From the NCBI RefSeq assembly GCF_004137795.1, contig NZ_NWTM01000001.1, positions 124,001 through 188,000 of the forward strand: a stretch of 64,000 nt of DNA, read 5' to 3'. Under the pieces are notes generated by a model. That model did no database searches and had not been told where the DNA came from. It worked only from the letters and a program-made list of their open reading frames with translations. Shown piece after piece: positions 45,620-62,977 of this stretch. The first letter of the stretch is position 1, and every line of letters begins with the position of its first letter. Position numbers and translations under genes: made by a program. The stretch comes from Pectobacterium zantedeschiae. GTDB lineage: Bacteria; Pseudomonadota; Gammaproteobacteria; Enterobacterales; Enterobacteriaceae.

Positions 45620-45626
45620 GGGATGA

Positions 45627-46748: not shown

Positions 46749-48178
46749 ACCTTCACTCAGAGCTTCAGGAACTGCAAGATTTCCTTCGTGCGGCATTACT
46801 TGACCCTTCTAACCCAAATCAGTTGGCGATTAGCGGCAGCGATGAGGCAATGACGTGGCAACAGCTATCCGTCGCCGTTACTGACTGGTCACATCGCTAT
46901 CAGCAATGCCAGCAGCCTGCCGGTCGGCCGGTTGTGTTATATGGCCATCAGCAGGCGGAGTTCGCCGTGGCGATCTATAGCTGCCTGCTGCATAACATTC
47001 CGTATATCCCAGTGGACTGCATCTATCCACAGGAGCGGCTCAGGGAAATTTGCCACCTGGCGAACGCCCCTTACTACTATGATGTCGCGACCCGGCAGTT
47101 CATTGCTACCGGTGAGGCTGGTCAGGCATTGGTCGAGCAGAATCTCGCCTATATCATGTTCACCTCCGGCAGCACGGGAAAACCTAAAGGTGTGCAGATC
47201 GGGCGTGAAAGCCTGTGGCATTTCATGAAATGGGTGCGTGAGGATTTCTCTCTGCCAGACGCGCCGGTGCTCATGAACCATGCGGTGTTCAGCTTCGATC
47301 TCTCCCTGATCCCGCTGCTGGCGAATCTGGCAACGGGGGGACACATCGTTCTGAATGCGAAAGAGGATATTGCGGCAGAAAATTGGCTCGAACGCCTAAA
47401 AGACAACGAGGTTTCCGTCTGGGTTTCAACACCATCTTTCGCTTACCAGAGACTGCTCTCCACTCAGTTCAACAGTGAATATTTACCTGAGCTCAACGTC
47501 TTCGTGTTCATTGGTGAAGTGCTAAACAAAGCGCTGGTCAAACAGTTACGCCGCCGCTTCCCACACGCCAAAATTCTCAACTCCTATGGCCCAACGGAAG
47601 CGACCATCGCTACCACCGTCATCGAAATCACGGATGACATCCTGCACAGCGAAAACGATCTGCTGCCAGTCGGTGCGATGATGCCGGATTCCAGGATGGA
47701 AATTACCGCCGAGGGTGAGCTGATTATTTGGGGCAAAAACGTGATGCGTGGATACCTCGGTTTAGCACAGGAGAACGCTGAGAAATTGCTGCATCGGGAA
47801 AGTGAAGCATTCCGAGGCTACAGAACTGGCGACCTGGGCTACGAGGACGGGCTCCTTTACTGCCAGGGTAGAAATGACAGCCAAATCAAACTCAATGGCT
47901 ACCGTATTGAAATCAACGAGATTGAAAACCGCCTGCTGGCGATATCCGACATCAGTGAGGCGGTTGTTCTGCCGCTGATGAAATCGGGCGGTGGTGTTCT
48001 GCGTATCGCGGCATTCTGTGTGACGAACTTAGCGCCAGAAGCGATTAAAACGTCTCTCTCTAAAGTGATCCCACCTTACATGGTGCCTTCCCAAATCATT
48101 ATCAAAGATGCGTTGCCGCTGAATCCCAACGGCAAGATTGACCGTAAACTGCTGGACACCCATGCCCGCACGATTTAA
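46745..48178 (+). CDS. dltA: D-alanine:carrier-protein ligase, DltA-like
   Basis: A 477-residue adenylation enzyme. Core motifs are in order: YIMFTSGSTGKPKG (about residues 136-149), YGPTEATI (about 281-288), YRTGDLGY and GRNDSQIKLNGYRIE (about 359-395), and the C-terminal lysine motif LPLNPNGKIDRK. It adenylates D-alanine and loads it on the 4'-phosphopantetheine arm of DltC encoded 17 bases downstream. D-Ala specificity is inferred from the operon. Confidence 0.88.
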   Translation: MNLHSELQELQDFLRAALLDPSNPNQLAISGSDEAMTWQQLSVAVTDWSHRYQQCQQPAGRPVVLYGHQQAEFAVAIYSCLLHNIPYIPVDCIYPQERLREICHLANAPYYYDVATRQFIATGEAGQALVEQNLAYIMFTSGSTGKPKGVQIGRESLWHFMKWVREDFSLPDAPVLMNHAVFSFDLSLIPLLANLATGGHIVLNAKEDIAAENWLERLKDNEVSVWVSTPSFAYQRLLSTQFNSEYLPELNVFVFIGEVLNKALVKQLRRRFPHAKILNSYGPTEATIATTVIEITDDILHSENDLLPVGAMMPDSRMEITAEGELIIWGKNVMRGYLGLAQENAEKLLHRESEAFRGYRTGDLGYEDGLLYCQGRNDSQIKLNGYRIEINEIENRLLAISDISEAVVLPLMKSGGGVLRIAAFCVTNLAPEAIKTSLSKVIPPYMVPSQIIIKDALPLNPNGKIDRKLLDTHARTI

Positions 48179-48195
48179 TTATCTCAGGAAAAATT

Positions 48196-48417
48196 ATGGA
48201 ACAAGAAATACTCGCGCTGTTTGAAAAGATCTTATCCCGTAAAGTGGGCTTTAACGATGAGCTGATTGAGTCCGATATTCTCGACTCTATTCTGGCAGTC
48301 GATCTGGTACTGGAAGTGCAGGACGTTTATGGCTGTGTGATTCCGCCAACCGAAGTGGCTACCGTTTTGAAGACTCCAGCGGATCTGGCTCGTTATATTG
48401 AAGAGAACCGCGGCTAA
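48196..48417 (+). CDS. dltC: D-alanyl carrier protein, DltC-like
   Basis: A 73-residue acyl-carrier-type protein. The phosphopantetheine serine is in DILDSILAVDLV (residue 32 by count). It needs an ACP synthase encoded elsewhere. CAGGAAA precedes the ATG. It is the last gene of the operon, with a strong terminator after it. Confidence 0.9.
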   Translation: MEQEILALFEKILSRKVGFNDELIESDILDSILAVDLVLEVQDVYGCVIPPTEVATVLKTPADLARYIEENRG

Positions 48418-48447
48418 GTCTGAAACGGTGACGATTTTGCACGATTT

Positions 48448-48482
48448 AAAGCCCCCAGATAGGTTTATCTGGGGGCTTTTTT
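48448..48482. terminator. Bidirectional intrinsic terminator between dltC and mesD
   Basis: AAAGCCCCCAGAT and ATCTGGGGGCTTT are perfect 13-bp arms with a 6-base loop. A T-run follows on the plus strand and TTTAAA on the other. Confidence 0.92.
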
Positions 48483-48529
48483 ATAGGGTTTGGAAGCTAG
48501 AGTCTTATACTAGACCCGTGTTCCTGGCG

Positions 48530-49561
48530 TTATTTAGCCAAGAGTTCTCTTCGAACGATTTCTGCGCCTGCACTTAACGCATTGAGTTTGCCTGTAGCTA
48601 CCCGACGAGATAAAGGAGCCATACCACAGTTGGTAGAAGGGTAGAGCTTGTCGGCATCAACAAACTGAAGTGCTTTGCGTAGCGTACTGGCGACTTCCTC
48701 TGGTGTCTCAATGGCATTGGTTGCCACGTCAATGGCTCCGACCATCACTTTTTTACCGCGAATCAGTTCAAGCAGGTCCATTGGAACATGCGAGTTATGG
48801 CACTCCAGCGAGATGATATCGATGTTAGATGTTTGCAGTTTAGGAAACGCTTCTTCATATTGCCGCCACTCTGACCCCAGCGTCTTTTTCCAATCTGTAT
48901 TGGCTTTGATGCCATATCCGTAGCAGATATGTACTGCCGTTTCACATTTCAGTCCTTCAATCGCTCTTTCTAACGCGGCGATACCCCAATCATTCACCTC
49001 ATCAAAAAAGACATTAAAAGCCGGTTCATCAAACTGAATAATATCCACACCAGCAGCTTCTAATTCTCTGGCTTCTTGATTGAGAATTTTTGCGAACTCC
49101 CAGGCTAGCTTTTCGCGGCTTTTATAGTGGTTATCATAGAGCGTATCGATCATCGTCATTGGCCCAGGCAGAGCCCATTTAATCGGTTTCTTCGTGAGTT
49201 GACGTAAGAATTTGGCATCTTCGACAAAAACGGGTTTTTGACGCGCCACCGCACCGACAACGGTCGGTACGCTCGCGTCATAGCGATTACGAATTTTAAC
49301 GACTTCACGTTTCTCAAAATCTACGCCGCTAAGGTGTTCAATAAACGTCGTGACGAAGTGTTGGCGCGTTTGCTCGCCATCGCTGACGATATCAATATCG
49401 GCACGCAGTTGATCAAACAGCGATAAACTCAGAGCATCTTTTTTCCCCTCAATTAACTCTTCGTTTTGTAATTTCCAAGGGGACCACAGTTTCTCAGGCT
49501 CTGCGAGCCAGGATGGTTTGGGCAAACTGCCAGCAGTTGAAGTGGGTAGCAATGTTTTCAT
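48530..49561 (-). CDS. mesD: Folate-independent core methionine synthase MesD
   Basis: A 343-residue protein equal to the C-terminal catalytic barrel of MetE without the N-terminal half. Zinc ligands are visible as His and Cys in AVHICYGY (about residue 216), Glu in ISLECHNS, and Cys in STNCGMAP near residue 313. The family uses an unknown methyl donor rather than methyl-tetrahydrofolate polyglutamate. It follows the MesX gene, its required partner in that family. It makes methionine from homocysteine in the cytoplasm. Confidence 0.85.
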   Translation of the reverse strand: MKTLLPTSTAGSLPKPSWLAEPEKLWSPWKLQNEELIEGKKDALSLSLFDQLRADIDIVSDGEQTRQHFVTTFIEHLSGVDFEKREVVKIRNRYDASVPTVVGAVARQKPVFVEDAKFLRQLTKKPIKWALPGPMTMIDTLYDNHYKSREKLAWEFAKILNQEARELEAAGVDIIQFDEPAFNVFFDEVNDWGIAALERAIEGLKCETAVHICYGYGIKANTDWKKTLGSEWRQYEEAFPKLQTSNIDIISLECHNSHVPMDLLELIRGKKVMVGAIDVATNAIETPEEVASTLRKALQFVDADKLYPSTNCGMAPLSRRVATGKLNALSAGAEIVRRELLAK

Positions 49562-49588
49562 AACAGGTGACCTTATATTTTTGGTGAA

Positions 49589-50566
49589 TCAACGCGCGTA
49601 GTGAGCAGACCATTGTTCAAGAATATTCTTGTAGGGTTTGATGAAGTGCTCTTCAGTAAACTTTCCTTGCTCAATAGCCAACTGACTGCGTTCTACCCGA
49701 TCATAAACAATTTTTGTTAATGAATGATCTTGATGGTTCAGGTTGGGTTGATAGCATTGTCCTGCTGCCGAGTTAGCATTGTAAATCTCAGGTCGGTAAA
49801 TCTTTTGGAAAGTCTCCATCGTGCTGATAGTACTGATAAGCTCAAGATTCGTGTAATCGCTCAGTAAATCACCAGAAAAATAAAAAGCCAAAGGTGCAAC
49901 ACTATTTGCAGGCATAAAGTAGCGTGCCTGTAATCCCATTTTTGCGAAATAATGGTCTGTCAAAGAGGATTCATTTTGCTGGTATTCGATGCCCAATACA
50001 GGGTGCTGATTTCCAGTCCGATGATAGGTGTTTTTGCTGGAAACGCTTAGGCATATAACAGGTTGTTTATTAAAATTATTTTTGTAATCGTTTGAATTGG
50101 TGAAACATTTGAATAGTTTTCCATGTAAATCGCCAAAGTTATCTGGCGTGTTAAATCCAGTGTGACTCTTATTATGCTCTGGCAGTAGTACGCTGAAATC
50201 ATAGTCTCGCACGTAAGAGGAAAAATTATTCCCTACGATGCCTTCAATGCGTTGATTGGTTTTTTTATCAACAATATTCGTTTTCAATATTTCAATGACT
50301 GGGAAGGTGTCGCCATTGCCTTCAATATCAATCTCTACGGAAATGATTTCAAGTTCGACAGAATAACGGTCTGCGTTGGGGTTATCCCAATAGGCCAATG
50401 TATTGAAGCGGTTATCAATCATTACTAACGTGTTGCGTAAGTTCTCCTGGCGACTCTTCCCTCTGGCCAGGTTAGCAAAGTTGGTCGTGATACGTGTATT
50501 TTCTGAGGGGTTATAATTCTCATCGAAACAACTGCTCTTAATCGTAAATGTAAAATCTTTGTTCAT
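49589..50566 (-). CDS. mesX: MesX, DUF1852 partner of MesD
   Basis: A 325-residue DUF1852 protein, recognised from the FTIKSSCFDENYNPSENTRI start, the TNFANLARG segment and YRPEIYNANSA near residue 260. Known members occur beside the core MetE protein MesD and are needed for its oxygen-dependent methionine synthesis; the chemistry is not settled. It lies 27 bases before mesD on the same strand, forming an operon. No signal peptide. Confidence 0.85.
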   Translation of the reverse strand: MNKDFTFTIKSSCFDENYNPSENTRITTNFANLARGKSRQENLRNTLVMIDNRFNTLAYWDNPNADRYSVELEIISVEIDIEGNGDTFPVIEILKTNIVDKKTNQRIEGIVGNNFSSYVRDYDFSVLLPEHNKSHTGFNTPDNFGDLHGKLFKCFTNSNDYKNNFNKQPVICLSVSSKNTYHRTGNQHPVLGIEYQQNESSLTDHYFAKMGLQARYFMPANSVAPLAFYFSGDLLSDYTNLELISTISTMETFQKIYRPEIYNANSAAGQCYQPNLNHQDHSLTKIVYDRVERSQLAIEQGKFTEEHFIKPYKNILEQWSAHYAR

Positions 50567-50755
50567 CGTGTTCTTGCATCCTAAAATTTGATATGAAAAC
50601 TAAATCAATATGTTGACTTTTAATGGTTTATTTGTTTCTCGTTCAGCAGTCTTCATGTTGTCAATACGTTAATATTGCATATTTTATGCCAGAGTCATTG
50701 GATGAGTTAAAGAGAGTTAATTTCATCAAACATGAATTATATTCATGATCAGGCG

Positions 50756-51040
50756 CGCGGTCAGGAAACCTGGGAACCGCGCATGACCTGCTAGCATGGC
50801 ATCGTACGAGCCGATGGGTGTTCCTTGTCTTGCCAGTTCCGCACGAATTTTCCTCGTATGTACAGCAGCATCAACACCATAAGTTTGCACGTCCAGACGA
50901 GTAAAAAACCCTCAAGCACGTGAGATTCTTTTCTGGGTTCACCGATTTCTCAGCGCCATAGATCAGTCCCATTAGCGTTATAGAACTGATAGCAAACCCG
51001 TAATGACTGCAGAAAGTATCGCTGACTTCAAGTATTTACT
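50756..51040 (-). pseudogene. Degraded vapC-like PIN toxin remnant (left copy)
   Basis: The nucleotide text aligns along its length to the vapC copy at about 62650-62935, sharing for example GATGGGTGTTCCTTGT, GCCATAGATCAGT and ACTGATAGCAAAC. Frameshifts and point changes break the frame; ITLM..LIYGAEKSVNPEKN can still be read on the minus strand. Both ends of the gene are missing. It marks the left edge of the AT-rich island. Confidence 0.8.
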
Positions 51041-51154
51041 CTCGTGAAAGTTGCATTTAGCTGGAATTAAAGTGGGCGGCAGACCAAGATACTTGGCGGA
51101 TAATGATTGTTAACACACTAACATTATAAAAGGGATGCTGTAAGCACACCCATT

Positions 51155-51457
51155 TTAGTTCCACACACTTTTTGAGATTTCCGGGTTTTCAGCCATCAGC
51201 CGATATTCTTCCGGCGTCAGGTTATTCAGGGATTCATGAGGACGCTCGCTGTTATATTCATGCAGCCAGCGTTCCGTAATTTCAGTCAGTGCCTGAATGA
51301 CCGGCTCATCACGCTGGGTGTCAGACTGATAAAAATACACCGTCCTGCTCAGCGATAACGTCCTGCATGCCTGGCGGATGCTCATCGCAAACTGTGCAGT
51401 CAGATAACTGACGAGCTCACGCTTTATCGCTGGTTTTAAAGCTTTTTTCAATAACAT
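51155..51457 (-). pseudogene. IS3-family orfB, internally deleted
   Basis: The first 58 or so codons (RELVSYLTAQFAMS, ACRTLSLSR, DEPVIQALTE) are the N-terminus of an OrfB transposase. They join directly to the C-terminus (ITERWLHEYNSERPHESLN, TPEEYRLMAENPEISKS). The DDE core between them is missing. The frame remains open over the join. Confidence 0.85.
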
Positions 51458-51475
51458 CTTTGAGTGCCCGGCACT

Positions 51476-51701
51476 CCAGACTCAGATCGGCAAACATCTG
51501 TTTCAGCAGACGGTTTTCATCCTCCAGCTCTTTCATCTTTTTGATATCAGAGGCTTCCATTCCGCTAAACCTCGCTTTTCAGTTGTAGTACGACGTCTCG
51601 GATATTCCGGCTTCGCGGCAAACGTCTTTGACAGTACGTCCGGCTTCAACGGACTTCAACACGGCGATGATCTGGTGCTTGGTAAATCGGGCTTTACACA
51701 T
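51476..51701 (-). pseudogene. IS3-family orfA with in-frame stop
   Basis: From the ATG at 51701 the frame reads MCKARFTKHQIIAVLKSVEAG and GRTVKDVCREAGISETSYYN, an HTH typical of IS3 OrfA. It hits TGA at 51579-51581. After the stop the same frame continues KARFSGMEASDIKKMKELED and ends near DVIEK at the A-rich frameshift site. Confidence 0.8.
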
Positions 51702-51781
51702 AGCGATCTCCTCAACGGGACATAATCAGTATGTCGGAAGATCTCTAAAAGTGAATGGTTCTGTTTACCGGGATGCTTACA

Positions 51782-52089
51782 AAAACATGTGTCTATAATC
51801 AACTGAATAATAATGCATAAATATTGAAATAGTTATCACACTAAGAAATAAAAGTATTTGGTAACATATTGCAATGTATAGGCTCTATTTATAAAAGCTT
51901 AGAGGTTATCAATCTAAGTAATATTATATATCTTACTGATTTATAGTTGTTTCATTTTAAGAATTATTTTTATACAAATTCTCACCTTTTAAGATTTTAT
52001 GTAAATCCACAATCGGAGTATGGTTATATAACTGCATGAGTTTGCAGTTAAAACACATATTCAAACAATCCGTAACAAGGAGTGAGTGC
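51782..52089 (+). promoter_or_regulatory. AT-rich leader of the peptide cluster
   Basis: About 310 bases of very AT-rich sequence between the IS remnant and the precursor gene. AACTGCA (52030-52036) and TGCAGTT (52043-52049) form a perfect 7-bp inverted repeat 40 bases before the start codon, a candidate operator or leader hairpin. Promoter hexamers cannot be chosen with confidence in such AT-rich DNA. Confidence 0.5.
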
Positions 52090-52317
52090 ATGAAAAACAT
52101 GAATATTGCATCAGGTATGATTGGTGCTGGGATAATTGGTGGATTGGGATTGGCTGCTTTTAGTGCTTCAGCTAGTGTAGATACAACGTCAAGCAAAACA
52201 GCAACTCAGGTTGCTCCTGTACAAACTGAACAAACACAAGATAAAACTGCATCAAATAGCAAAAAAGTAGAGATCAAAGAAGCGACTCTGGCTTGTATGG
52301 CATGTTCAAACATTTAA
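52090..52317 (+). CDS. Putative modified-peptide precursor (leader plus C-terminal ACMACSNI)
   Basis: A 75-residue peptide. Residues 6-27 are a glycine-rich hydrophobic stretch ending FSASAS, which could be a signal peptide with AxA cleavage. Residues 28-63 are a Thr/Ser/Gln/Lys-rich linker. The C-terminus is EATLACMACSNI, with two cysteines three apart, the likely core. AAGGAG before the ATG at 52090 decides the start. A terminator-like hairpin follows, then ten enzyme genes. Precursor identity is inferred from position and shape; no known family is recognised. Confidence 0.65.
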   Translation: MKNMNIASGMIGAGIIGGLGLAAFSASASVDTTSSKTATQVAPVQTEQTQDKTASNSKKVEIKEATLACMACSNI

Positions 52318-52328
52318 TGGAATAAACC

Positions 52329-52354
52329 AAGGGGGGAGGGAACTCCCCCTTTTT
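52329..52354 (+). terminator. Attenuator hairpin after the precursor gene
   Basis: AAGGGGG and CCCCCTT pair around a 9-base loop and run into TTT. It lies 12 bases after the precursor stop and 15 before the next start. Such a leaky terminator would give more precursor than enzyme message, as in many modified-peptide operons. Confidence 0.7.
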
Positions 52355-52369
52355 AAACAAGGATATGTC

Positions 52370-53188
52370 ATGCAAGGATATTTAAATAAAAGAATTCTTC
52401 TCGAAAATTTAGAGAAATATTTAAAAAAAAGAAGCGTATTATTAGCTGAAGTTGTTGAAAAAATTAAAGCTAATGTAAAGTGTAATGTTGCATATCTAGG
52501 TGGTTCTATAGTTTATGGAATAAATAATATTTACTCAGATATAGATATATTGGCTGTTGTAGATGATAGCTATAGCCACTTACCTGCTCAGTTGACACAA
52601 TTTGAGATAAAAGGAGTAAGAGTCGATTGTAGAACCATATCTACGAGTAAACTAAAATCTGTAATAGACAACATACAAAAAAAAGCAGATATAATTGCAG
52701 ATAATAAAAACCCTTTCAGAATCGGTTTGAGAAATGATGAGCATGAAGCTTTGGATAGGATATCAAACGGTATATGCTTACATGGGAACGAGTTCAAGTA
52801 TAAGAATTATGATGATTCCCTACCATTAATATTAACCTTCGATAGAATAAATGACTTTTTCGGCATATATCAAGATGCTGTAGGAGCACTACTATCAGGA
52901 CATCGATACTATGCATATACACGCATAAATGAATGTGCAGCAAAATTGGTTGACATATTCTTATCAAGTAAAAATTATATAAATCCTTCTGTTAAGTCTA
53001 GGGTATTGGTGCTCGAAAGGTTTTATCCAGATGACTCTATCACATTATGGTACAAATCAATTCTAGAAAACATAAGCATATTAAAAACTTCAGATGATGA
53101 GATGCGTAATCACTTAAGAAAAATGAATTCAATGATTATTGATTTGCAACTAGAAAAATTAAAAATGATAGAGGGATATCATGGATAG
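52370..53188 (+). CDS. Nucleotidyltransferase-fold protein
   Basis: A 272-residue protein with the minimal nucleotidyltransferase signature GGSIVYG...YSDIDILAVVDD (about residues 44-67), where the two aspartates bind metal. A third acidic residue in RVDCR (near 85) completes the site, and a helical C-terminal half follows. It should transfer a nucleotide to a small molecule or to the peptide. It overlaps the next gene by 8 bases. AT-rich codon use, unlike the flanking chromosome. Confidence 0.8.
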   Translation: MQGYLNKRILLENLEKYLKKRSVLLAEVVEKIKANVKCNVAYLGGSIVYGINNIYSDIDILAVVDDSYSHLPAQLTQFEIKGVRVDCRTISTSKLKSVIDNIQKKADIIADNKNPFRIGLRNDEHEALDRISNGICLHGNEFKYKNYDDSLPLILTFDRINDFFGIYQDAVGALLSGHRYYAYTRINECAAKLVDIFLSSKNYINPSVKSRVLVLERFYPDDSITLWYKSILENISILKTSDDEMRNHLRKMNSMIIDLQLEKLKMIEGYHG

Positions 53189-53462
53189 TCAATACTATAG
53201 CATGGAGGTGGATGTAAGAGTTGTAATAATAAACACCACTGAAGTTATTATTCAAAAAATGAACTCTATGTCAATGGATTCAAAATGCGTCATATTGAAG
53301 AGCGAACGATGCATTGAATTAATTAAGTACCTAATGAGCTCACATTCTTACTCAGAAATAAAACAGTATTTTAACACAGATATTCCAAATTTAAATGATA
53401 TTATGATGACGCTTCTAAAATACAACATCCTTACTATAGGGCAAAGAAATGTTGTTCTTTAG
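53181..53462 (+). CDS. Small PqqD/RRE-like protein
   Basis: A 93-residue protein. A beta-rich N-terminal half is followed by a helical ERCIELIKYLMSSHSYSEIK and LNDIMMTLLKYNILT, the pattern of a winged-helix PqqD-type peptide-recognition element. These bind leader peptides and pass them to radical SAM and other enzymes. The call rests on predicted pattern, size and company, as no strict motif exists. It overlaps both neighbours. Confidence 0.55.
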   Translation: MDSQYYSMEVDVRVVIINTTEVIIQKMNSMSMDSKCVILKSERCIELIKYLMSSHSYSEIKQYFNTDIPNLNDIMMTLLKYNILTIGQRNVVL

Positions 53463-54051
53463 TGAACTTTTAATTTTTTGGGGTTTATTTTTTTTTACCC
53501 CCAAGGATTATGCTAATACTTTTCCATGTTCGCCAATCCCTTTCATACAAAATGGGATACCAGGGGATTGGCTATATTTCGAAAATCATGCAAATAGTCA
53601 ATACGAAAGAGTTGGTTATGATTTCGATGATACTATTTTAATCTCAAGAGATGGCAGCGTAATAGATATTAAGCCAGTATTTAATTTAACTATTGTGAAG
53701 CGATTAATTTTAGATATTAAACTTAAAAGGAAGATTTATTTAATTTCAAATAGGAATGAAGATCAAAGAAGTGAAATTACAAGATTAATGAGGAGTATTT
53801 TTTCTCCGCAAGATTTAATTGGTATCAATATAATACTTCTTGGCGGCACGAATGAACTGAAAGCTAAATACATAGAAAGCAATAGAATAGATGTTTACTA
53901 TGGTGACTCAGATTCAGATATGGTATACGCAATAATGGGTGGAGCCAAACCTGTCAGGGTATTAAGAAACACTATATCTAAAGATAAACACGGCGCAAAC
54001 ATTGGCATTTTTAAAGAATTTATTATGGGGTGCTCGCAGAGAGCAAGTTGA
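53449..54051 (+). CDS. AphA-like (class B) HAD acid phosphatase, probably exported
   Basis: A 200-residue HAD-fold phosphatase. The catalytic aspartates are in GYDFDDTILIS (about residues 57-67), motif II is YLISNRNE, and the C-terminal motif is VYYGDSDSDM (about 148-157). KPVRVLRN and GIFKEFIMG match class B acid phosphatases such as E. coli AphA. A hydrophobic N-terminus (about residues 2-18) suggests export or membrane anchoring. It overlaps the RRE-like gene by 14 bases. It may remove a phosphate from the product outside the cytoplasm. Confidence 0.75.
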   Translation: MLFFSELLIFWGLFFFTPKDYANTFPCSPIPFIQNGIPGDWLYFENHANSQYERVGYDFDDTILISRDGSVIDIKPVFNLTIVKRLILDIKLKRKIYLISNRNEDQRSEITRLMRSIFSPQDLIGINIILLGGTNELKAKYIESNRIDVYYGDSDSDMVYAIMGGAKPVRVLRNTISKDKHGANIGIFKEFIMGCSQRAS

Positions 54052-54057
54052 GGATTT

Positions 54058-55362
54058 ATGGCAGAGAATAGAATAGGAAGTCATATTGTTGCAGTTATTG
54101 GGTTGGGCTATATAGGCTTACCTGTAGCTTGTGAGTTTTCTAAATACTTCAATGTTATAGCCTATGATTGCAACCGAACCAGAGTTGAACAGCTGAGTAA
54201 CAATATAGACTCAACTGGGACAAATTCATACGGATGTAGGAATGAGAAAAACATAAAATGGACTAACGATGAGTATGATATTGAATCGGCTGATTTTTTT
54301 ATAGTTTGCGTTCCTACACCTGTCGATATAAACAACAAACCAGACATAACATGTCTGATAAAAGCAACAAAAACTGTTGGTCATTATTTAAGAAAAAATA
54401 GCATAGTTGTATATGAGTCTACTGTATCGCCGGGAACAACTGAAGAAGTATGTCAACCACTTCTTGAAGAATACGCACAACTGAAATCTGGAAAGGATTT
54501 TTTTATTGGATTTAGTCCTGAAAGATTGTGCCCAGGGGATGAGCTTCACTCCTTAGTAAATACAGATAAAATTGTATCATGTGCTCATGAAAACGGATTG
54601 CAGAAAATTTTTATGGTATATAACCATGTGTATAAGAAAGGAATACACAAAACCTCAAGTATTAGAAGTGCAGAGGCTGCTAAAATATTAGAAAACATAC
54701 AACGAGATGTTAATATTGCACTAATCAATGAAGTCCATGAGGTTTTTCAAAAAGATAACATAGATACTTATGAAGTTATACGTCTGGCTTCAACAAAATG
54801 GAATTTTGGGAAATACTTCCCCGGTCTTGTTGGAGGACATTGCATAAGTGTTGACCCATACTATTTTATTGATTATGCAAATAAATCTGGGCATCCAGTT
54901 CCACTAGTAAGTGTATCGAGAAGGATTAATGAGAACAAAAAAGACATTATCATTGAGAAAGTCAATTTATTCATAAAAAATAATAAAATTATGAACCCAA
55001 AGATTGCCATCTTTGGAGTTACGTATAAAGAAAACTGTACAGATACGAGAAATTCGAAATCTTTATTGATTTATCAATCTCTTGTTAATAGTGGATATGA
55101 GGTTCATTTAAATGATATTAAGTTACTGAATAAGTCGAAATTCACTACTAATTACGATATAAATCTCACGCCGGTCGAAAACATATCTGGCTGTGATATT
55201 CTTATCATTTGCGTTGCTCATGATGAGTATAAAAGAATGATTCTTTCAGACTATAAAAAAATAATTAACAATGAGTCTTTGATTATAGATATGAAAAATG
55301 TAATCAATGAATCACTAAACTTACAACTCTCTGAGCATAAGATCAAGTTAATTAAAGGATAA
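54058..55362 (+). CDS. Nucleotide-sugar dehydrogenase (UDP-HexNAc 6-dehydrogenase type)
   Basis: A 434-residue NAD-dependent dehydrogenase of the UDP-glucose/UDP-ManNAc family. The Rossmann loop is GLGYIGLPVACEF (about residues 16-28). The catalytic cysteine is in LVGGHCISVDPYYF (about 260-273), and the GVTYKENCTDTRNS segment is near 321. It is closer to the TviB/WecC type than to the Ugd encoded at 27.3 kb. In this operon it would oxidise a nucleotide-linked sugar or a similar alcohol to an acid. Confidence 0.85.
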   Translation: MAENRIGSHIVAVIGLGYIGLPVACEFSKYFNVIAYDCNRTRVEQLSNNIDSTGTNSYGCRNEKNIKWTNDEYDIESADFFIVCVPTPVDINNKPDITCLIKATKTVGHYLRKNSIVVYESTVSPGTTEEVCQPLLEEYAQLKSGKDFFIGFSPERLCPGDELHSLVNTDKIVSCAHENGLQKIFMVYNHVYKKGIHKTSSIRSAEAAKILENIQRDVNIALINEVHEVFQKDNIDTYEVIRLASTKWNFGKYFPGLVGGHCISVDPYYFIDYANKSGHPVPLVSVSRRINENKKDIIIEKVNLFIKNNKIMNPKIAIFGVTYKENCTDTRNSKSLLIYQSLVNSGYEVHLNDIKLLNKSKFTTNYDINLTPVENISGCDILIICVAHDEYKRMILSDYKKIINNESLIIDMKNVINESLNLQLSEHKIKLIKG

Positions 55363-55365
55363 CAA

Positions 55366-56622
55366 ATGATAAGCTTAAAGGATTTAATTAGAAATGATCT
55401 TCCAGGTAATTTTAATGAGGCATATAATCTCTATAAAAGAAAGGAACTGGTGCTTTGTAACCTAAACGGAATTATAGTACCACCTTATGAAGTTCTTATA
55501 CATCCATCGAGTTACTGTAACTTAACTTGCCAGTGGTGTATTGGAGAGCATATACATGTCGAGAGCAGCGATGATATGGAACCTCATTTTATACCAAAAA
55601 AAAATGAGCATATATTGCCGAATATTCTTCATGATGAAAGTGCATTGCTTGCAGTTGTAGAAAATATACTTTCGTATAAAAAGACAGTTAAAACTGTCAT
55701 TGACGGCATACAAATCGACAAAGTCTTTAGTGTAGAGAATTTTAGTTTTTCAGGTATTACAGGGGAACCTTTGATAGCTAAAAAATCACTTATCTCAGCT
55801 ATCAGAAAAATAACATCAGAAGGTAAACGAACTGGTATGTTTACTAACGGATTAAAAATATCATCAGATTGCTGTGATGTATTATCAAGATTATCTTATA
55901 TAAATATAAGTGTTGATGCAGGAAGTAATTCAACTTATAATAAACTAAAGTGTTCAGGTAGGAAATCTCAAAACTCAGATCTCGATAAAGTTTTTTCAAA
56001 TATTTATCTTTTAAATCAATTCAAAACGCTTAATGCTACCAGTCTTGATATTAATTGCTCCTGTATATTATACCCAGAAAATTATCGTGAAATCTATACG
56101 CTCGCCTCAAAATTAAAAGAGTTAGGAGTCTCTAACTTAAGGTTAAAAAAAGATATTTATGGTGAGAAGGTTTTAAATGAAATCGAGAGAAAAGAATGTC
56201 TTGAATTAATCGAGAGAATCAAATGTGATCTTGAGGATACATCATTTAAACTAATTATTGTACACGATTTGAATAATAAAAAAGAGCAATTACAGGATTT
56301 TAGCTCCTGTCTGATTTCTAAAATGATGGCAGCGGTAGGTTCTGATGGTATGTTATATCCGTGTAATTATCACCCGAGACCAAATGGATACACATTAGGA
56401 AATCTCGTGGAGAACTCACTTGAGGATATTTGGGAATCACAATTCCGAGCAAATATCGATAAACAGCTTCCCTGTATATGCCCGTCAGTATGCGATCCAT
56501 TCAAAACCAGGTCGAACAGACTATTTGATAGATTAGAAAATGAATACAAGACTAATGGCCCAAAATTAATTCATGAATTTCTTCATGAATCCGAGACTAT
56601 TTTTGGAGGTAAGTTAAAATGA
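55366..56622 (+). CDS. Radical SAM/SPASM enzyme
   Basis: A 418-residue radical SAM protein. The 4Fe-4S motif CNLTCQWC is at about residues 51-58. A SPASM-like C-terminal region has cysteines in SSCLIS, YPCNYHPR, LPCICPSVCDP (about 311-385). These auxiliary clusters are typical of peptide-modifying maturases. With a precursor peptide and an RRE-like gene upstream it is the best candidate for the committed peptide modification. It overlaps the Nudix gene by 4 bases. Confidence 0.88.
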   Translation: MISLKDLIRNDLPGNFNEAYNLYKRKELVLCNLNGIIVPPYEVLIHPSSYCNLTCQWCIGEHIHVESSDDMEPHFIPKKNEHILPNILHDESALLAVVENILSYKKTVKTVIDGIQIDKVFSVENFSFSGITGEPLIAKKSLISAIRKITSEGKRTGMFTNGLKISSDCCDVLSRLSYINISVDAGSNSTYNKLKCSGRKSQNSDLDKVFSNIYLLNQFKTLNATSLDINCSCILYPENYREIYTLASKLKELGVSNLRLKKDIYGEKVLNEIERKECLELIERIKCDLEDTSFKLIIVHDLNNKKEQLQDFSSCLISKMMAAVGSDGMLYPCNYHPRPNGYTLGNLVENSLEDIWESQFRANIDKQLPCICPSVCDPFKTRSNRLFDRLENEYKTNGPKLIHEFLHESETIFGGKLK

Positions 56623-57080
56623 GGCAACCAGCACAGGTACTAGTAGTTCCATTTAAAGTTACTAATGGTGAGTTATTATTAGCAATTTTAAAGCGTCACG
56701 ATATGGACATGTGGCAATGGGTTGCAGGTGGAGTTGAAGAAAATGAATCTATACAACAAGCAGCTTTAAGAGAATCCCAAGAAGAGCTTGGGATTCTCTG
56801 TAGTGATTTAAAAATCATTACATTAGAGTCAAAATGCTCTATTCCTAAGATATATTTCGATGGAAATGAAAACTGGCCTAAAGATATATTTACTGTCACT
56901 GAGCATTCTTTTGCTATTGAGATACCTGAAAATCAGAAACTCTCTTTAAGTTTAGAGCATTCTAGTCATCAGATTATTAAATACTCTGAACTGTGTAATT
57001 TCCACACATGGGACAGTAATCGTACAGCTGCATGGGAACTTCACCAGAGATTATTAACTACTGGAGTTATTACACGATGA
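56619..57080 (+). CDS. Nudix hydrolase
   Basis: A 153-residue Nudix protein. The box GGVEENESIQQAALRESQEELGI (about residues 36-58, GX5EX7RExxEExG) is intact. The overall shape recalls dihydroneopterin-triphosphate pyrophosphatase NudB. It should cleave a nucleoside diphosphate-linked compound, perhaps releasing a phosphorylated moiety from the product of the nucleotidyltransferase or the nucleotide-sugar branch. Overlaps on both sides (ATGA). Confidence 0.85.
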   Translation: MRQPAQVLVVPFKVTNGELLLAILKRHDMDMWQWVAGGVEENESIQQAALRESQEELGILCSDLKIITLESKCSIPKIYFDGNENWPKDIFTVTEHSFAIEIPENQKLSLSLEHSSHQIIKYSELCNFHTWDSNRTAAWELHQRLLTTGVITR

Positions 57081-58255
57081 GAAGCTACCCATCCTTACCC
57101 GTAAAAGCTTTTTTTGATGGTTTTGAATGGAAAAGTGGTGGGTGGCTTTTTAAACAAACAGATAAGAGTGGGAATTTTGTTATTGAGTTTAATAAAACCG
57201 CTGAAAAAAGTAAATTTTTGGCAATTTCAAGTTTTATAAACACACATGCTCATATTTCACATATCCCAAGATATAGCAATCAATGTGGTTCAGATGTTTT
57301 GGAAGGCAAACCTAACATAGGGGGGGGATCTTTTACTGATAATGTTTTCAATTCTTCAAATGATTGTACTATCAATGGTGTTAACATTGTTTGCTCTAGT
57401 ATTAGGCCTGAAAATGTAAACGATCTCCTTAGTGTATATAATGATTTACCCATTAAGGTCGTACCATTTATAAGTGTTAAACATTATCATGACAAAAATT
57501 TAATTATATTAGAACTAAATAAGATTGTTAAGTTTTTTGATACGTATAATGTACCAATCAGACCTGCCATCATAATTCATTCGTTATACAACATAACAGA
57601 AGATGACCTGAGTTTTTATTGTGAATACTCCTTGAAAAATCGGATTGTTATTAGTATTCATCTGTTTGAGTGGGAGGGGGAGTTATTGTTTTATCAAAAA
57701 CCATATGCAGATTTTAACGACAGTATTTATTTAAGAATGAAACGTAATTGGCAGTCTATAAATCTGGATAATTGCTTGATTAAAATTATCAATAACAAGT
57801 TACTAATGAAAATTCTTGTTCATTGCAGTTACATTCCCAAAGAGTTGTTAAGCATAAATAGTAATAATAGTACATTAATTACTCTTTGCCCCTCCTCATG
57901 TATAAGGCTGAACAATCCAGTTTTACTACCTATGGACTTCAATAATATTGCTATAGCTACCGATGGGTATTACACAAATATGGGTTATAATCTAATCAAT
58001 GAATTGAAAGTTTATAATGTTACATCGCGAGTTCGTAATAAGTATTATGAAGCTAATTCTCTTTTATCTAGCATTACAGGTAATCCACAAAAATTCATAA
58101 TTAATTCTGGTTTAATAACAGACAGAAAACTAATTCATAACTTCAGTAATTTGAATTTTTTTAAAAAAACATCTGGTTATATACCTGATGATTTTATTGG
58201 CTCTGATTTTATTAACTATAATGATAGCTATCAAAGGTTTTTCTATTATGAATGA
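57077..58255 (+). CDS. Amidohydrolase-superfamily protein (TRZ/ATZ-like)
   Basis: A 392-residue metal-dependent hydrolase. The first metal motif is INTHAHIS (about residues 54-61), then ISIHLFEWEG, LVHCSYI and IATDGYYTNMG. This order (HxH, H, H, D) fits the deaminase/chlorohydrolase branch of the amidohydrolase superfamily. Deamination or hydrolysis of a heterocycle or amide is the likely reaction. The ATG at 57077 overlaps the Nudix stop. The closest substrate class cannot be told from sequence alone. Confidence 0.75.
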   Translation: MRSYPSLPVKAFFDGFEWKSGGWLFKQTDKSGNFVIEFNKTAEKSKFLAISSFINTHAHISHIPRYSNQCGSDVLEGKPNIGGGSFTDNVFNSSNDCTINGVNIVCSSIRPENVNDLLSVYNDLPIKVVPFISVKHYHDKNLIILELNKIVKFFDTYNVPIRPAIIIHSLYNITEDDLSFYCEYSLKNRIVISIHLFEWEGELLFYQKPYADFNDSIYLRMKRNWQSINLDNCLIKIINNKLLMKILVHCSYIPKELLSINSNNSTLITLCPSSCIRLNNPVLLPMDFNNIAIATDGYYTNMGYNLINELKVYNVTSRVRNKYYEANSLLSSITGNPQKFIINSGLITDRKLIHNFSNLNFFKKTSGYIPDDFIGSDFINYNDSYQRFFYYE

Positions 58256-59399
58256 ATTTATGTATTTTGGTGAGCCAAATATCGGCTGTAACATTGACGA
58301 CGAATTTGTTGATAGATACGTTCACCAACTATCAAGCATTATGAAGAGTAAAAGTTTTTCTGCAAATTCATTGGTTGAAAAATTTGAGAAGAAATTTTCT
58401 TTTACTTTTAATGAAGAAAATTTTTCACTCATAACAAATGCAACCACCGCGTTAGAGTTAGCATTGTATGTTGTAAAACTTGAATCAGGTTTTGCACATG
58501 TTGTGACTCAAGCCATTGGTTTTTTCGGCGTACACTCGATGGTATTAAGTCGTGGCTATTCTTTGACATTATGTGATGTGCAAAAAACTTCTTTTGACTT
58601 CGATTATTCTGAACTAGAAGAAAAACTACTTAATGGCGCAAATGTGATTCTAGTCACTCATATGAACGGGATACCTGTAAATATGAAGTCAGTGACAGAT
58701 ATTGCAAAAAAGGTTTTCCACATAACGAAAAGGAAAATATGGATAATAGATGATCTTTCAAGGAGTTTAGGTGCTAAAATTGATTCTTGTAATATTTCTA
58801 AATTTAGTGATTTTTCCGTATTTTCATTCCAATCCAAAAAACATATGACGCTATTAGGGGAGGGCGGAGGGGTTGTTTGCAAAGATTCAGCACATGTGGA
58901 TTTTATCAAGGCGGCTCGTGGTTTTGGGAATAAAAAAACATATGGGTTCAATCATAAAATATCATTTTCACAAGTATTATTCGGATTGAATGCTTTAGAT
59001 ATAGTTCAAGAGCAAATTGATAAAAGAATTTCAATGGGATTATCAAGAGACAAAGCTATCGCAAAAATTGGATTTTTTGATTTCCTATATCCCGATACCA
59101 TTGATTTTAAATGCACTTACTATCTTTACACTTTGAAAATTAATGAAAAGTATCCTGCTGAAGTACGTGATCACATTATTAATATTCTAAAATCAAAAGG
59201 CATAGGATGTTCAATTGCAAACTTTCCTGTGTATAAAACATCAGGTTTCCTAAATTCTCACTTAAATTTTCCCATTTGTAAAAATGCTGATAACTTAGGG
59301 CAAAGAATTTTTTCCGTATCTATGCATCCTTCTTTCAGCGACAAAGATGAGGAGTATATAATTAATTCTTTGTGTGAGATTGCAAATGCATATAAATAA
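58248..59399 (+). CDS. DegT/DnrJ/EryC1-family aminotransferase
   Basis: A 383-residue PLP protein of the sugar-aminotransferase family. TNATTALELAL (about residues 64-74) binds the cofactor phosphate. IIDDLSRSLGA holds the pyridine-binding aspartate, and FSFQSKKHMTLLGEGGGVV the likely PLP lysine. Such enzymes aminate keto sugars or related keto compounds. It begins inside the amidohydrolase gene (8-base overlap) and overlaps the kinase by 14 bases. Confidence 0.85.
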   Translation: MNEFMYFGEPNIGCNIDDEFVDRYVHQLSSIMKSKSFSANSLVEKFEKKFSFTFNEENFSLITNATTALELALYVVKLESGFAHVVTQAIGFFGVHSMVLSRGYSLTLCDVQKTSFDFDYSELEEKLLNGANVILVTHMNGIPVNMKSVTDIAKKVFHITKRKIWIIDDLSRSLGAKIDSCNISKFSDFSVFSFQSKKHMTLLGEGGGVVCKDSAHVDFIKAARGFGNKKTYGFNHKISFSQVLFGLNALDIVQEQIDKRISMGLSRDKAIAKIGFFDFLYPDTIDFKCTYYLYTLKINEKYPAEVRDHIINILKSKGIGCSIANFPVYKTSGFLNSHLNFPICKNADNLGQRIFSVSMHPSFSDKDEEYIINSLCEIANAYK

Positions 59400-60315
59400 T
59401 ATATTAGGTGAGGTTGAAAAATTATTCGTAGGCTTTCCGAATTATCGTCTATTCAAAAAAATGAATGATGACATTTTAGTCATGACCGGCCTTTTAGATA
59501 ATCAACAAGTTTGTTTAAAAAAATGTGTAATTAAAAATCCAAGTTTATTCAATAGTTTCTTTGAAAGAATTATCAATAATAACACCTCATTAGTTTATCA
59601 ACTGTTACCTTCCATTAGTGGTGGTTTTATATATCATAATAATGATTACTGTCTTTATGCCTACAAAAAAGTATCAGGTGACACATTCACGTTCACTCGA
59701 GAGAAGGCAATAAATTTAGGTCAATCCCTTTCACGCTTGCATAACCTATTGAACGTTGTTGATGTAAAGACAAATCCTACTGTTTTAGAGAATATGATTG
59801 AACAATTCCTATCACGCAACCTCACTTCATTAAGTAACGGCATTCTTAGGAGCCAATATGTTTTTGATTATTTAAGAAATAATCCTGACATATATCAAAA
59901 ACGACAATCTCTTGTCCACGGGGATATGTGGGCTCAAAATATTATTACAAACCATCATGGAATTACATTCATTGATTTCGACTGCATAAGGATTTTCTAT
60001 AACGATTATGAATTGATGAGGTGTTTTTTTATCTCTCTTATTGACTATATAATCAAAGAAACAGTACCTATTCAAAGTTATATATTTGAATTTAAGGGGT
60101 ATTTTAAGTCGTATAGGGAAAATTTTGATATTGATTTATTATCAGCTTTCGAATTTTACCTCTTCATTTTCTGTTTAGAATGTGAAGTTGAGGATATGGC
60201 ACTCCATAATGCAAGGATGCAAGTTTTTCTCCGCAAAAGGAATGTGCTCCAATTTGTCTTGCTAAAGAATCTAAAAGTTATTTTTTCTGAATTTAATAAT
60301 TTAATGGTGGAATAA
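59386..60315 (+). CDS. APH/choline-kinase-like phosphotransferase
   Basis: A 309-residue kinase-fold protein. The catalytic loop LVHGDMWAQNII (about residues 180-191) and the metal motif FIDFDCIR (about 199-206) are those of aminoglycoside phosphotransferase-type small-molecule kinases. The ATG at 59386 gives a 14-base overlap with the aminotransferase. It would phosphorylate a hydroxyl of an intermediate. It could also provide self-protection, as phosphotransferases often do. Confidence 0.8.
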   Translation: MHINNILGEVEKLFVGFPNYRLFKKMNDDILVMTGLLDNQQVCLKKCVIKNPSLFNSFFERIINNNTSLVYQLLPSISGGFIYHNNDYCLYAYKKVSGDTFTFTREKAINLGQSLSRLHNLLNVVDVKTNPTVLENMIEQFLSRNLTSLSNGILRSQYVFDYLRNNPDIYQKRQSLVHGDMWAQNIITNHHGITFIDFDCIRIFYNDYELMRCFFISLIDYIIKETVPIQSYIFEFKGYFKSYRENFDIDLLSAFEFYLFIFCLECEVEDMALHNARMQVFLRKRNVLQFVLLKNLKVIFSEFNNLMVE

Positions 60316-60318
60316 ATC

Positions 60319-61215
60319 ATGTCGCAAAACAAGTTTTTTATCAAGTTAGATTTGCATTGTGATGTCAAAATTATTTGCATTGAAAGCAATGATGATGAAT
60401 TTTTGTTTTTTTTAAAGTCGTTATTCTATACTCATTTATGTAATGTAGAAGATGAAATTAATATAGACGTTACAGTTTCTGCTGAGTTTGGATTACCATT
60501 AATACATTTTACAGAGTTAAGTAGAACCTTTAATTCGGTACGCTGTGGTTTATTAGTAAATTCTTCATGTGATTCAACTCAGTTTCAACTGTTTGGGTTG
60601 TTTAAATCGAAGGGCTTATATAAGGCTGCATTTAGAGAGATACGTGACCATCTTGATACATTCATTATAAATAATAACGTCATGACCTTACATGCTTCCT
60701 GTGTTAGTGATAGTCGTGGTGCGATATGTGTTATTGGTGATAAGTTTGCAGGTAAAACAACTCTCATGCTTAAGTTGCTCTCGCTTAATTATAATTTTAT
60801 ATCAAATGATAAACCATATATATATAAGTCAGAAGGTAAATTTTATGTCTTTTCTTTACCTGTAAGTGCTGGTATTCGCTACGGAAGTTTAGATATTTCC
60901 CCTTGTTTAAAAGATAGTATACAAAATCTTTCTTCCTCTGATGAAGTTGAATTTTCCACACAAGGTAGAGTTCATTTGTCACCAAAAGTAATCTGCGATA
61001 TTTTTAACACAAGTTACTGCAATCACTCTGCTATCAGAAAGTTTATTTATCTAGAAACGAATTATAAAAATGATAAATCTATTCTTTTTTCTAGTGAAAA
61101 ACTCGATGAAAACATTCTAAGTTGTAAAGACCTAACTCTGCGTGATTCTTTTCTTGATGCAGAGATCAAGATCTGCTCATCATATGAAGAAGCTCTATCC
61201 GAAGCAATTTGTTAA
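60319..61215 (+). CDS. HPr-kinase-like (HprK/PEPCK fold) protein
   Basis: A 298-residue protein. TLHASCVSD, then the P-loop GDKFAGKTTLMLKLL (about residues 138-152), then ISNDKPYIY, follow the HPr-kinase-like fold seen in peptide-tailoring kinases of lasso and related clusters. It could phosphorylate a residue of the peptide. It is the last gene of the operon, 3 bases after the kinase. Confidence 0.75.
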   Translation: MSQNKFFIKLDLHCDVKIICIESNDDEFLFFLKSLFYTHLCNVEDEINIDVTVSAEFGLPLIHFTELSRTFNSVRCGLLVNSSCDSTQFQLFGLFKSKGLYKAAFREIRDHLDTFIINNNVMTLHASCVSDSRGAICVIGDKFAGKTTLMLKLLSLNYNFISNDKPYIYKSEGKFYVFSLPVSAGIRYGSLDISPCLKDSIQNLSSSDEVEFSTQGRVHLSPKVICDIFNTSYCNHSAIRKFIYLETNYKNDKSILFSSEKLDENILSCKDLTLRDSFLDAEIKICSSYEEALSEAIC

Positions 61216-61353
61216 ATTTGGTAATCTATAGTAATTACTTTCAAAAAAGACTAAATAACTTCGCAAAATAGTAGATTACTCGAAAGGAGCTCAGTCCGAG
61301 TTGTGCGATCTGATCAATCGTCAAATATCCAAAATCACCAACCGGACTAAGCG
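61216..61353. other. Junction between peptide cluster and IS remnants
   Basis: 138 bases with no clear terminator. CGGACTAAGCG and CTCAGTCCGAG here look like the outer end of the IS630-type fragment that follows. Confidence 0.4.
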
Positions 61354-61556
61354 ATGCCACTCATAGCAGCAATTCCTAATGAAGAACGACAGTTGATACG
61401 TAAAGCAGCCCAACAAATCCACGATAAAAATCATGCCAGATGCCTCATTGCCATACTGATGTTGCATAGGGGAATGACAGTCACGGAGGTCGCCAGAATA
61501 CTCTGTGCCGCTCGTTCATCTGTCGGAAGATGGGTGAATTGGTTTACTTTACATAA
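61354..61556 (+). pseudogene. IS630-family transposase, N-terminal fragment
   Basis: Codons 1-68 of the 142-codon open frame (PNEERQLIRKAAQQIHDKNH, MLMLHRGMTVTEVARIL..., ARSSVGRWVNWF) are the HTH N-terminus of an IS630-type transposase. The frame then switches into IS3 sequence, so the catalytic domain is lost. Confidence 0.8.
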
Positions 61557-61688
61557 TGAGCCCGTGATTATGGCACTGACCGTGGCGGCTGAACGCTATC
61601 CGCGATATGGATTTAAAAAGCTTTTTCAGGTACTTCGCAGACAGGGCAATATCTGGAACCATAAAAGAGCTCACCGGATTTACTGCGC
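61557..61688 (+). pseudogene. IS3-family orfB internal fragment fused to the IS630 fragment
   Basis: NEPVIMALTVAAERYPRYGF, KKLFQVLRRQG and WNHKRAHRIYC are the OrfB region that follows EPVIxALT, and much of it is missing from the deleted IS3 copy at 51.2 kb. It is in frame with the IS630 part and ends where integrase sequence (other strand) begins. Confidence 0.8.
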
Positions 61689-62232
61689 CAGTGACAATCG
61701 CGTAACGGAACACCTGATTACAGGCTTGGCGAATCTTACGCAACTTGTCGAGTACGCCACGTTTTTCCAGCTTGCGCAGTGAGGTTAGCATCTCCAGCGG
61801 CTTGATCTCAGCAACAGGCCGTTTGCCGATATCAGGAAAAATATCGTTCTCAAAGGCTTCCATCAGGTCTTCAGCGTAGCCCTTCGACCAGTTAGGGCGT
61901 TTGTATTCATGCCATTCCAATGCGATAGCTTTGAAGGTGTTATCAACGAGCGTTTGGCGCAGTTGTTTGTCCACCTTCTTCTGTTCGCTGGGGTCAGTCC
62001 CGGTAGCAATCTGGCGTTTGGCTTCATCACGGCGTTGCCGGGCTTCAGATAGGGTAATTTCAGGATATACCCCAAGCGCCAGTGTTTTCTGTTTGCCGTC
62101 GAAGCGGTATTGCAGACGCCAGTATTTTGAGCCATTAGGATGGACTATCAGATGCATCCCTTCACCATCGGTAAGTTTATAAGCCTTGTCTTCTGGTTTG
62201 GCACTTCTGACTTTTACGTCGGTGAGTGGCAT
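61689..62232 (-). pseudogene. P4-type tyrosine integrase, N-terminal part only
   Basis: It starts MPLTDVKVRSAKPEDKAYKL with the DUF4102 arm-binding domain (about residues 1-90) and part of the core-binding domain (about 95-180, WSKGYAEDLMEAFENDIFPD). It stops at YAIVTGAVNP, where the IS3 fragment begins. The catalytic domain with the R-H-R-Y residues is gone. It is a trace of an integrative element. Confidence 0.88.
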
Positions 62233-62268
62233 AGCAGATCTCCATATTGAGGTGTCGGCATACGCTGG

Positions 62269-62321
62269 TTGTTGGTATAAGAATTCATTGAACGGGCTTG
62301 TACCATCACTTATACCAACAA
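62269..62321. repeat. Perfect 13-bp inverted repeat before the integrase
   Basis: TTGTTGGTATAAG (62269-62281) and CTTATACCAACAA (62309-62321) are exact inverted copies with a 27-base spacer, 37 bases before the integrase start. This is a likely arm-site, excisionase or integrase-operator sequence of the lost element. Confidence 0.7.
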
Positions 62322-62578
62322 ATCCTACTTGATGTACGTAGATGCCGGTAGAGTCTGGTTGACTGAAAACAGCGGATTTATAGCTAATTCACTGAAATTT
62401 AGGCCCCTACAGGATTCGAGTTGGCCACGTATCTATATTGAAATAAAAGGATTTTCACCAGTTCGAAAAACGTAGTGGCCCCCAAATGGGCCCCCAAACC
62501 TTTCTGGCTGGATTTTTTGCGGGTTATCCGCAGTAGGTGGTGGATTATATCCTGTTTTGGGGGAGGGAAGAATACAGC
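62322..62578. other. Remnant attachment-region sequence
   Basis: No gene seen. GTGGCCCCCAAATGGGCCCCCAAACC at about 62475-62500 contains an imperfect repeat of GGCCCCCAAA, of the kind found by integrase genes. No tRNA could be built from the flanking sequence. Confidence 0.35.
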
Positions 62579-62977
62579 TTATCGACTGACCCAGTTTTCC
62601 ACACGTAGCCCAGGCACACGCTCAAATTCACGCACATTGTTCGTTACCAGTATCAAACCTGCGGACCGAGCATGACCCGCTAGCATGGCATCATACGGGC
62701 CGATGGGTGTTCCTTGTTTTGCCAGCTCTGCACGAATTTGGCCGGTATGTACGGCAGCGTCAAAACCATAGTGCTGAACTTCCAGACGCGCAGAAAATCC
62801 GTCAATCACGGCCAGATTCTTTTCTGGGTTTACCGATTTCTCCGCACCATAGATCAGTTCCATCAGCGTGATAGCACTGATAGCAAACTGCCCGTAATAA
62901 CGGTGGAAAGCGTCCCTGACTTCCTGTTTGAGGACTAAATGTGGTGAATAGTGACAAATGAAGGAGTATATTATCAA
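62579..62977 (-). pseudogene. vapC PIN-domain toxin, 5' truncated (right copy)
   Basis: An open frame of 132 codons. From QEVRDAFHRYYG on it follows VapC toxins (ITLMELIYGAEKS, then GPYDAMLAGHARS and LVTNNVREFERVPGL, with three of the acidic PIN residues). The first 20 codons are unrelated, so the N-terminal LDTN aspartate is missing, and no vapB antitoxin lies upstream. It is probably inactive. It is homologous to the left remnant at 50.8 kb. Confidence 0.8.

Follow-up and report, generated by a model that had tools for sequence, protein, structure and literature searches.

An eleven-gene operon

The window analysed here is a 64,000-nucleotide stretch of the Pectobacterium zantedeschiae genome, which has 5.06 Mb in 13 contigs (contig NZ_NWTM01000001.1, positions 124,001 to 188,000). 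Positions 52090–61215 of this window hold eleven intact open reading frames, all on the forward strand and here called genes A to K. A first-pass annotation had described them as an AT-rich, same-strand operon, and this was borne out: the GC fraction was 0.320 over 52036–61215 versus 0.502 over window positions 1–50766. A gap of 52 bases separates gene A from gene B, and genes B to K are joined by overlaps of 4–14 bases or spacing of 3–6 bases, as first described, when the ATG starts that we chose for H (57077), I (58248) and J (59386) are used. Nine enzymes (B and D to K) keep catalytic or ligand motifs, namely those of nucleotidyltransferases, HAD phosphatases and dehydrogenases, CxxxCxxC, the Nudix box, HxH, a lysine-bearing DegT site, HGDxxxxN and a P-loop. 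Because nine tightly joined enzyme frames keep their family motifs, the operon is not a product of chance.

Gene A (52090–52317, +) encodes a candidate precursor peptide of 75 amino acids. Its start is most likely the ATG at 52090, seven bases past AAGGAG, a strong Shine-Dalgarno sequence; a longer listed frame begins at 52036. The peptide does end in ACMACSNI, as annotated, with Cys69 and Cys72 near the end. By eye and hydropathy its N-terminus is Sec-like, with a hydrophobic run at about residues 6–24 followed by ASA at 26–28. Folding placed a terminator-like hairpin, with a run of T after it, in the gap that separates A from B (52330–52351, +). The fold of 52315–52365 had a free energy of -18.9 kcal/mol (z -2.04; 6 of 200 shuffled sequences folded equally well), and the hairpin is possibly an attenuator that gives excess precursor.

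The enzymes were assigned by bit scores against the curated cut-offs of Pfam and NCBIfam. The names first given to five of them held, each above its family cut-off. Gene B (52370–53188, +; GGS...SDID motif) is a nucleotidyltransferase (NTP_transf_2, 25.0 bits, cut-off 21). Gene E (54058–55362, +; GLGYIG, GGHC) is a nucleotide-sugar dehydrogenase (350 bits, cut-off 189.8), and its closest equivalog model was that of TviB-type UDP-GlcNAc 6-dehydrogenases (308 bits, cut-off 592). Gene G (56619–57080, +) is a Nudix hydrolase with an intact Nudix box (46 bits, cut-off 21.1); its closest PDB entry was 3son (E = 5.5e-29), presumably a Listeria protein. Gene I (58248–59399, +) is a DegT-type aminotransferase dependent on pyridoxal phosphate (154 bits, cut-off 19.8), with PseC-type aminotransferases as the closest equivalog model (130 bits, cut-off 423.5). 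Gene J (59386–60315, +; HGDMWAQN, DFD) is an APH-like small-molecule kinase (24.4 bits, cut-off 23.2).

For three further names the motifs agreed, but the scores stayed below the curated cut-offs. Gene D (53449–54051, +; DFDD, GDSDSD) is an AphA-like HAD phosphatase (41.8 bits, cut-off 195.8) that aligned with AphA phosphatases at the DxDDT motif and throughout its C-terminal half; its N-terminus is a hydrophobic stretch, and it is possibly periplasmic. Gene H (57077–58255, +; HAH, HLFE, VHC, TDG) is a deaminase-like amidohydrolase, distant from aminofutalosine deaminase (46.5 bits, cut-off 320) and aligned to 7lkj. Gene K (60319–61215, +; HAS, GDKFAGKT, SND) is a P-loop kinase only distantly like HprK (HprK-related kinase B, TIGR04355, 24 bits, cut-off 200); a fold model of K was discarded and not used (predicted local distance difference test, pLDDT, 36.5). 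The 93-residue protein of gene C (53181–53462, +) had been called PqqD/RRE-like (RRE, RiPP recognition element; RiPP, ribosomally synthesized and post-translationally modified peptide). Searches of Pfam, NCBIfam and PDB sequences with a limit of E = 10 gave no match to PqqD or an RRE; the few weak matches were to unrelated proteins. A modest single-sequence fold model (pLDDT 66.7), compared with 84 chains by a structural aligner, gave RRE-bearing proteins and ordinary winged helices as tied best matches, so that C is a possible RRE or winged-helix protein.

The radical SAM enzyme and its relatives

Gene F (55366–56622, +) encodes a radical S-adenosylmethionine (SAM) enzyme with a SPASM/twitch-type C-terminus (CNLTCQWC, GEP; later cysteines at 315, 333, 370, 372 and 376), as first named. 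The SPASM score was 35.8 bits (cut-off 21.5) and the Radical_SAM score 28.6 bits, just below 29.5; CxxxCxxC together with the C-terminal SPASM match places F among the SPASM/twitch radical SAM enzymes. F is without a close relative in the genomes searched. No ortholog was found in five draws of 98, 369, 394, 392 and 234 genomes (E limits 1e-10, 1e-12, 1e-12, 1e-10 and 1e-12, respectively), which overlap, each include the source genome and are samples of one phylum; the best non-self match had 67.7 bits. With the source genome set aside, distant matches occurred in 0, 3 (at four places), 1, 0 and 14 genomes of these draws. F alone found no close relatives in viral contigs, and two partial matches of 23–25% in plasmids. 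A further scan of genome contigs with two unhelpful patterns gave two distant relatives and does not exclude orthologs.

The best detectable relatives are surface-sugar radical SAM enzymes (e.g. those of loci L063 and L066), which have about 23–31% identity to F over about 240 residues; F differs from them by a long insertion that separates CxxxCxxC from GEP. Sugar-nucleotide or surface-sugar genes surrounded the relative in nine of the ten neighbourhoods read (L004, L010, L035, L036, L063, L064, L066, L074, L075 and L076), the exception being L004, a 3.7-kb stretch. L006, L036 and L065 are apparently one stretch and were counted once; outside the count lie 19 viral relatives, an unannotated Streptomyces locus (L009) and, of the 14 genomes with matches in the 234-genome draw, 11. 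Sugar genes were called by Pfam in L063 and L066, where the assignment held for eight of nine neighbours tested and the ninth had no match, by annotation in L010, and by eye from sequence in the others. In diverse bacteria (L063, L064, L066, L036, L035 and L076), a SPASM radical SAM enzyme recurs next to genes for an epimerase, a transketolase-like protein, a PfkB-cytidylyltransferase and an NTP-transferase, or next to some of these. This recurrent set suggests a common radical step in a surface sugar.

A profile of F and five relatives, four of them from sugar clusters, found 19 distant relatives in viral contigs. Its PDB matches to SkfB (the best, 54.2 bits), cytosylglucuronate decarboxylase, DesII and BtrN all fell within four bits, and therefore the profile cannot separate peptide from sugar chemistry. 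It also matched 5v1q, which we take to be SuiB, at 41 bits. Against the PDB, F alone matched 5v1q (E = 0.0056, residues 8–126) and, spuriously, a splicing factor. In a 44-row radical SAM tree F sat on a branch of 3.06, so no placement was drawn from it. A defence system was rejected, F being below the NCBIfam viperin cut-off (41.7 bits, cut-off 180) and the PADLOC matches being partial and confined to F (pVip, 43.3 bits) and G (PDC-S07, 24.2 bits), with none for the other eight proteins.

The island and the search for related operons

The operon is foreign DNA, horizontally acquired and carried on an island. The left flank (48000–50700) was kept, at least partly, in 25 of 25 genomes of the genus (source genome included). 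The main left-flank match ended at 50753–50766 in six of seven congeneric stretches and at 51138 in the other, and 51140–61686 had no match in the seven (rows of at least 100 bases, E = 1e-10), one of which extends for only 3,870 bases to a contig end. F likewise had no match in 24 congener genomes (E = 1e-10). The left flank carries an IS-type transposase piece (integrase core, rve_3; 51155–51457, -), and the right flank a helix-turn-helix piece and a partial tyrosine integrase, its N-terminal portion (61549–62232, -), to which the congeners L054 and L057 have related DNA. A PIN-domain (vapC-like) stretch lies on both sides of the island as a direct repeat of 82% identity (50766–51029 and 62655–62923). 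A single contiguous match in L057 across 61894–62927, covering integrase and vapC, suggests that this DNA marks the edge of an integrative element. A tRNA-borne island was rejected, as no tRNA lies within the window.

Beside these features, an Rfam isrN match (51295–51437, +, 133 bits) overlies the transposase fragment on the opposite strand, and the isrN family may therefore consist partly of insertion-sequence DNA. Further left, inspection by eye suggests a dlt-type operon at 44364–48417 (DltD-like, MBOAT, AMP-binding at 46745–48178, carrier protein), of which the AMP-binding match was confirmed; dlt operons are unusual in Gram-negative bacteria. Elsewhere in the genus, locus L061 (genome G018) has a 504-codon radical SAM-like frame (352–1863, -) with a PqqD match near its start (26.7 bits, above the cut-off), possibly a separate peptide maturase.

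A second copy of the operon, with or without the peptide gene, was not found in the genome draws, plasmids and viral contigs searched. These absences have limited sensitivity for orthologs because a pattern scan depends on short stretches being identical and the draws sample one phylum. Peptide A had no match in genome or viral contigs, nor among the loci compared; beyond the source genome itself, the 25 genus genomes gave a single weak match (30% identity, E = 0.007), within an 804-codon frame. An A-like gene beside the operon enzymes was not seen again in the genome contigs, viral contigs and genus genomes. Homologous operons lacking a peptide gene, which the first-pass annotation had regarded as contrary evidence, were not seen either, nor any with one. 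K occurred only in the source genome among 398 phylum genomes, was absent from viral contigs, and had four partial Streptomyces matches in plasmids. H, B and J had no plasmid match, and G matched five plasmid records (four Vibrio, one Streptomyces), of which two neighbourhoods were viewed and neither was operon-like. Megablast found no operon DNA in E. coli genomes. Besides F, and beyond a DegT protein in L035, no operon protein had a match in the surface-sugar loci compared, a set to which L067–L076 do not belong. The gene set was not described among the literature matches listed, most subscription journals being outside the scope of the search; the first-pass statement that no described pathway was known to have this set agrees with the literature and collections covered. 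As no orthologous operon was found, the role of the peptide remains that of a candidate.

Possible products of the operon

We tentatively favour the reading that the acquired operon makes a peptide-linked or peptide-templated metabolite of amino-sugar or nucleoside-like character, while regarding it as somewhat more apt to be wrong than right. The peptide is indicated by the short head gene with its strong Shine-Dalgarno sequence, Sec-like N-terminus and ACMACSNI end, by the hairpin before the enzymes, and by the pairing of a kinase with a nucleotidyltransferase, as in pseudomycoidin. The peptide half of the reading is weakened by several results. Six genes besides F (D, E, G, H, I and J) represent sugar or nucleotide chemistry; the relatives of F that were read are distant, and all but one of their ten neighbourhoods carry sugar genes; and F is below every NCBIfam equivalog cut-off for RiPP maturases (PapB 33.1 of 340 bits, DynA 25.9 of 450, others lower), its best NCBIfam family, among 25 of 29 listed, being W_rSAM_matur (64.2 bits, cut-off 380). 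A RiPP label is plausible, and the support for sugar chemistry is no weaker than that for a RiPP. The first-pass claim of a peptide-based pathway stands as regards a biosynthetic operon led by a peptide gene, but the kin of F and the six enzymes point to sugar or nucleotide chemistry; its appeal to established RiPP logic was overstated, given the scores and kin of F and an RRE assignment that comes from one model.

The individual reactions, and the link between peptide and sugar, we infer from the protein families. E would oxidize a UDP-sugar at C6, giving the acid, F would form a ketone or decarboxylate by BtrN/BlsE/DesII-like radical chemistry, and I would transaminate, the three together giving an amino-uronic or amino-pentose group. 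H might deaminate a base or related group and G cleave a pyrophosphate, both adjusting a nucleotide-like part. K could add a phosphate close to the C-terminus of the peptide, at Ser73 or the Cys pair, and a nucleotidyl or sugar group could then be placed on this phosphate by B, as reported for PsmK/PsmN in pseudomycoidin. C may act as a leader-binding helper, J may phosphorylate the product for protection, and D, AphA-like and perhaps periplasmic, may remove phosphate after Sec export.

Parts of this scheme have counterparts. The blasticidin S (BlsE) and butirosin (BtrN) pathways share with it a sugar or uronic substrate and a radical SAM step followed by DegT-type transamination. In the blasticidin S pathway an aminotransferase step follows BlsE, butirosin has BtrN and BtrS, and streptomycin is masked by phosphate. 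The BlsE precedent is the radical decarboxylation of a glucuronyl nucleoside (PMC3715490). The agreement is in enzyme kinds only, as F is not an ortholog of BlsE or BtrN. Pseudomycoidin/paeninodin-type lasso tailoring (PsmK, PsmN, B1) likewise has a peptide gene in the same operon as a kinase and a nucleotidyltransferase, and a small RRE protein is possibly shared as well. In contrast, the operon here has extra sugar and nucleotide enzymes, a Sec-like precursor N-terminus and a kinase only distantly HprK-like, and a lasso peptide was rejected because the ten downstream proteins include no asparagine-synthetase-like cyclase (C protein) or B2 protease. Bufferins and oxazolins, which are MNIO-modified, Sec-exported Cys peptides, share the Cys peptide with a Sec-like N-terminus and a suspected RRE-type partner, but no MNIO (DUF692) or DUF2063 match occurs among the ten downstream proteins.

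Possible, though doubtful, is a pathway to a small-molecule antibiotic of amino-sugar, aminocyclitol or nucleoside type, in which A would be an exported Cys peptide without relation to the product, B (ANT-like) together with J (APH-like) would give self-protection, D would be an activating phosphatase and K an unrelated P-loop kinase. The same six genes, and F by the kinship described above, fit such chemistry. The top plasmid matches of I (172 and 147 bits, among 15 of 472 records listed) also lie in actinobacterial clusters that contain genes for a radical SAM enzyme, a nucleoside phosphorylase and either a phosphotransferase or a Nudix protein, with no peptide annotated. However, these clusters have only I in common with the operon (E = 1e-4), A heads the operon with its own Shine-Dalgarno sequence and attenuator-like hairpin, and K and C would have no obvious role. 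The two clusters, in Streptosporangium (L012) and Streptomyces (L014), look in themselves like nucleoside-type pathways.

We consider unlikely the more specific proposal of a new ribosomal product class, in which a Sec-exported Cys peptide, phosphorylated and nucleotidylated at its C-terminus, would carry an amino-sugar or nucleoside warhead built by the dehydrogenase, radical SAM enzyme, aminotransferase, deaminase and Nudix hydrolase, with the periplasmic phosphatase releasing or activating it. Less probable still is an operon that decorates a cell-surface glycan or lipopolysaccharide by altering a sugar of an existing polymer. The TviB-like E and PseC-like I (both below equivalog cut-offs) and the distant F kin, mostly in polysaccharide regions, accord with this, but the peptide gene, Nudix hydrolase, deaminase and two kinases would be left unexplained, and no glycosyltransferase, flippase, polymerase or transporter was recognised among the ten downstream proteins. 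A simple capsule or O-antigen locus was rejected for lack of a recognised glycosyltransferase, polymerase or export gene among these ten. The least probable is a conventional RiPP with F as peptide maturase (e.g. one that cross-links ACMACSNI through Cys) and only tailoring left to the sugar enzymes, to which the SkfB and 5v1q matches of the profile and the Cys pair point, but F alone matches just 5v1q, misses every NCBIfam cut-off and has sugar-linked kin.

Should A be a bystander, the operon would still hold, in F, a radical SAM enzyme to which the searched genomes offered no close relative. If peptide and sugar chemistry are parts of one pathway, as in the reading that we favour, nucleotide-sugar chemistry would be performed on a gene-encoded peptide, which to our knowledge is known only in fragments, in phosphorylated or hexosylated lasso peptides. 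Because the operon is compact, intact and transferable to a laboratory strain, this question is directly testable.
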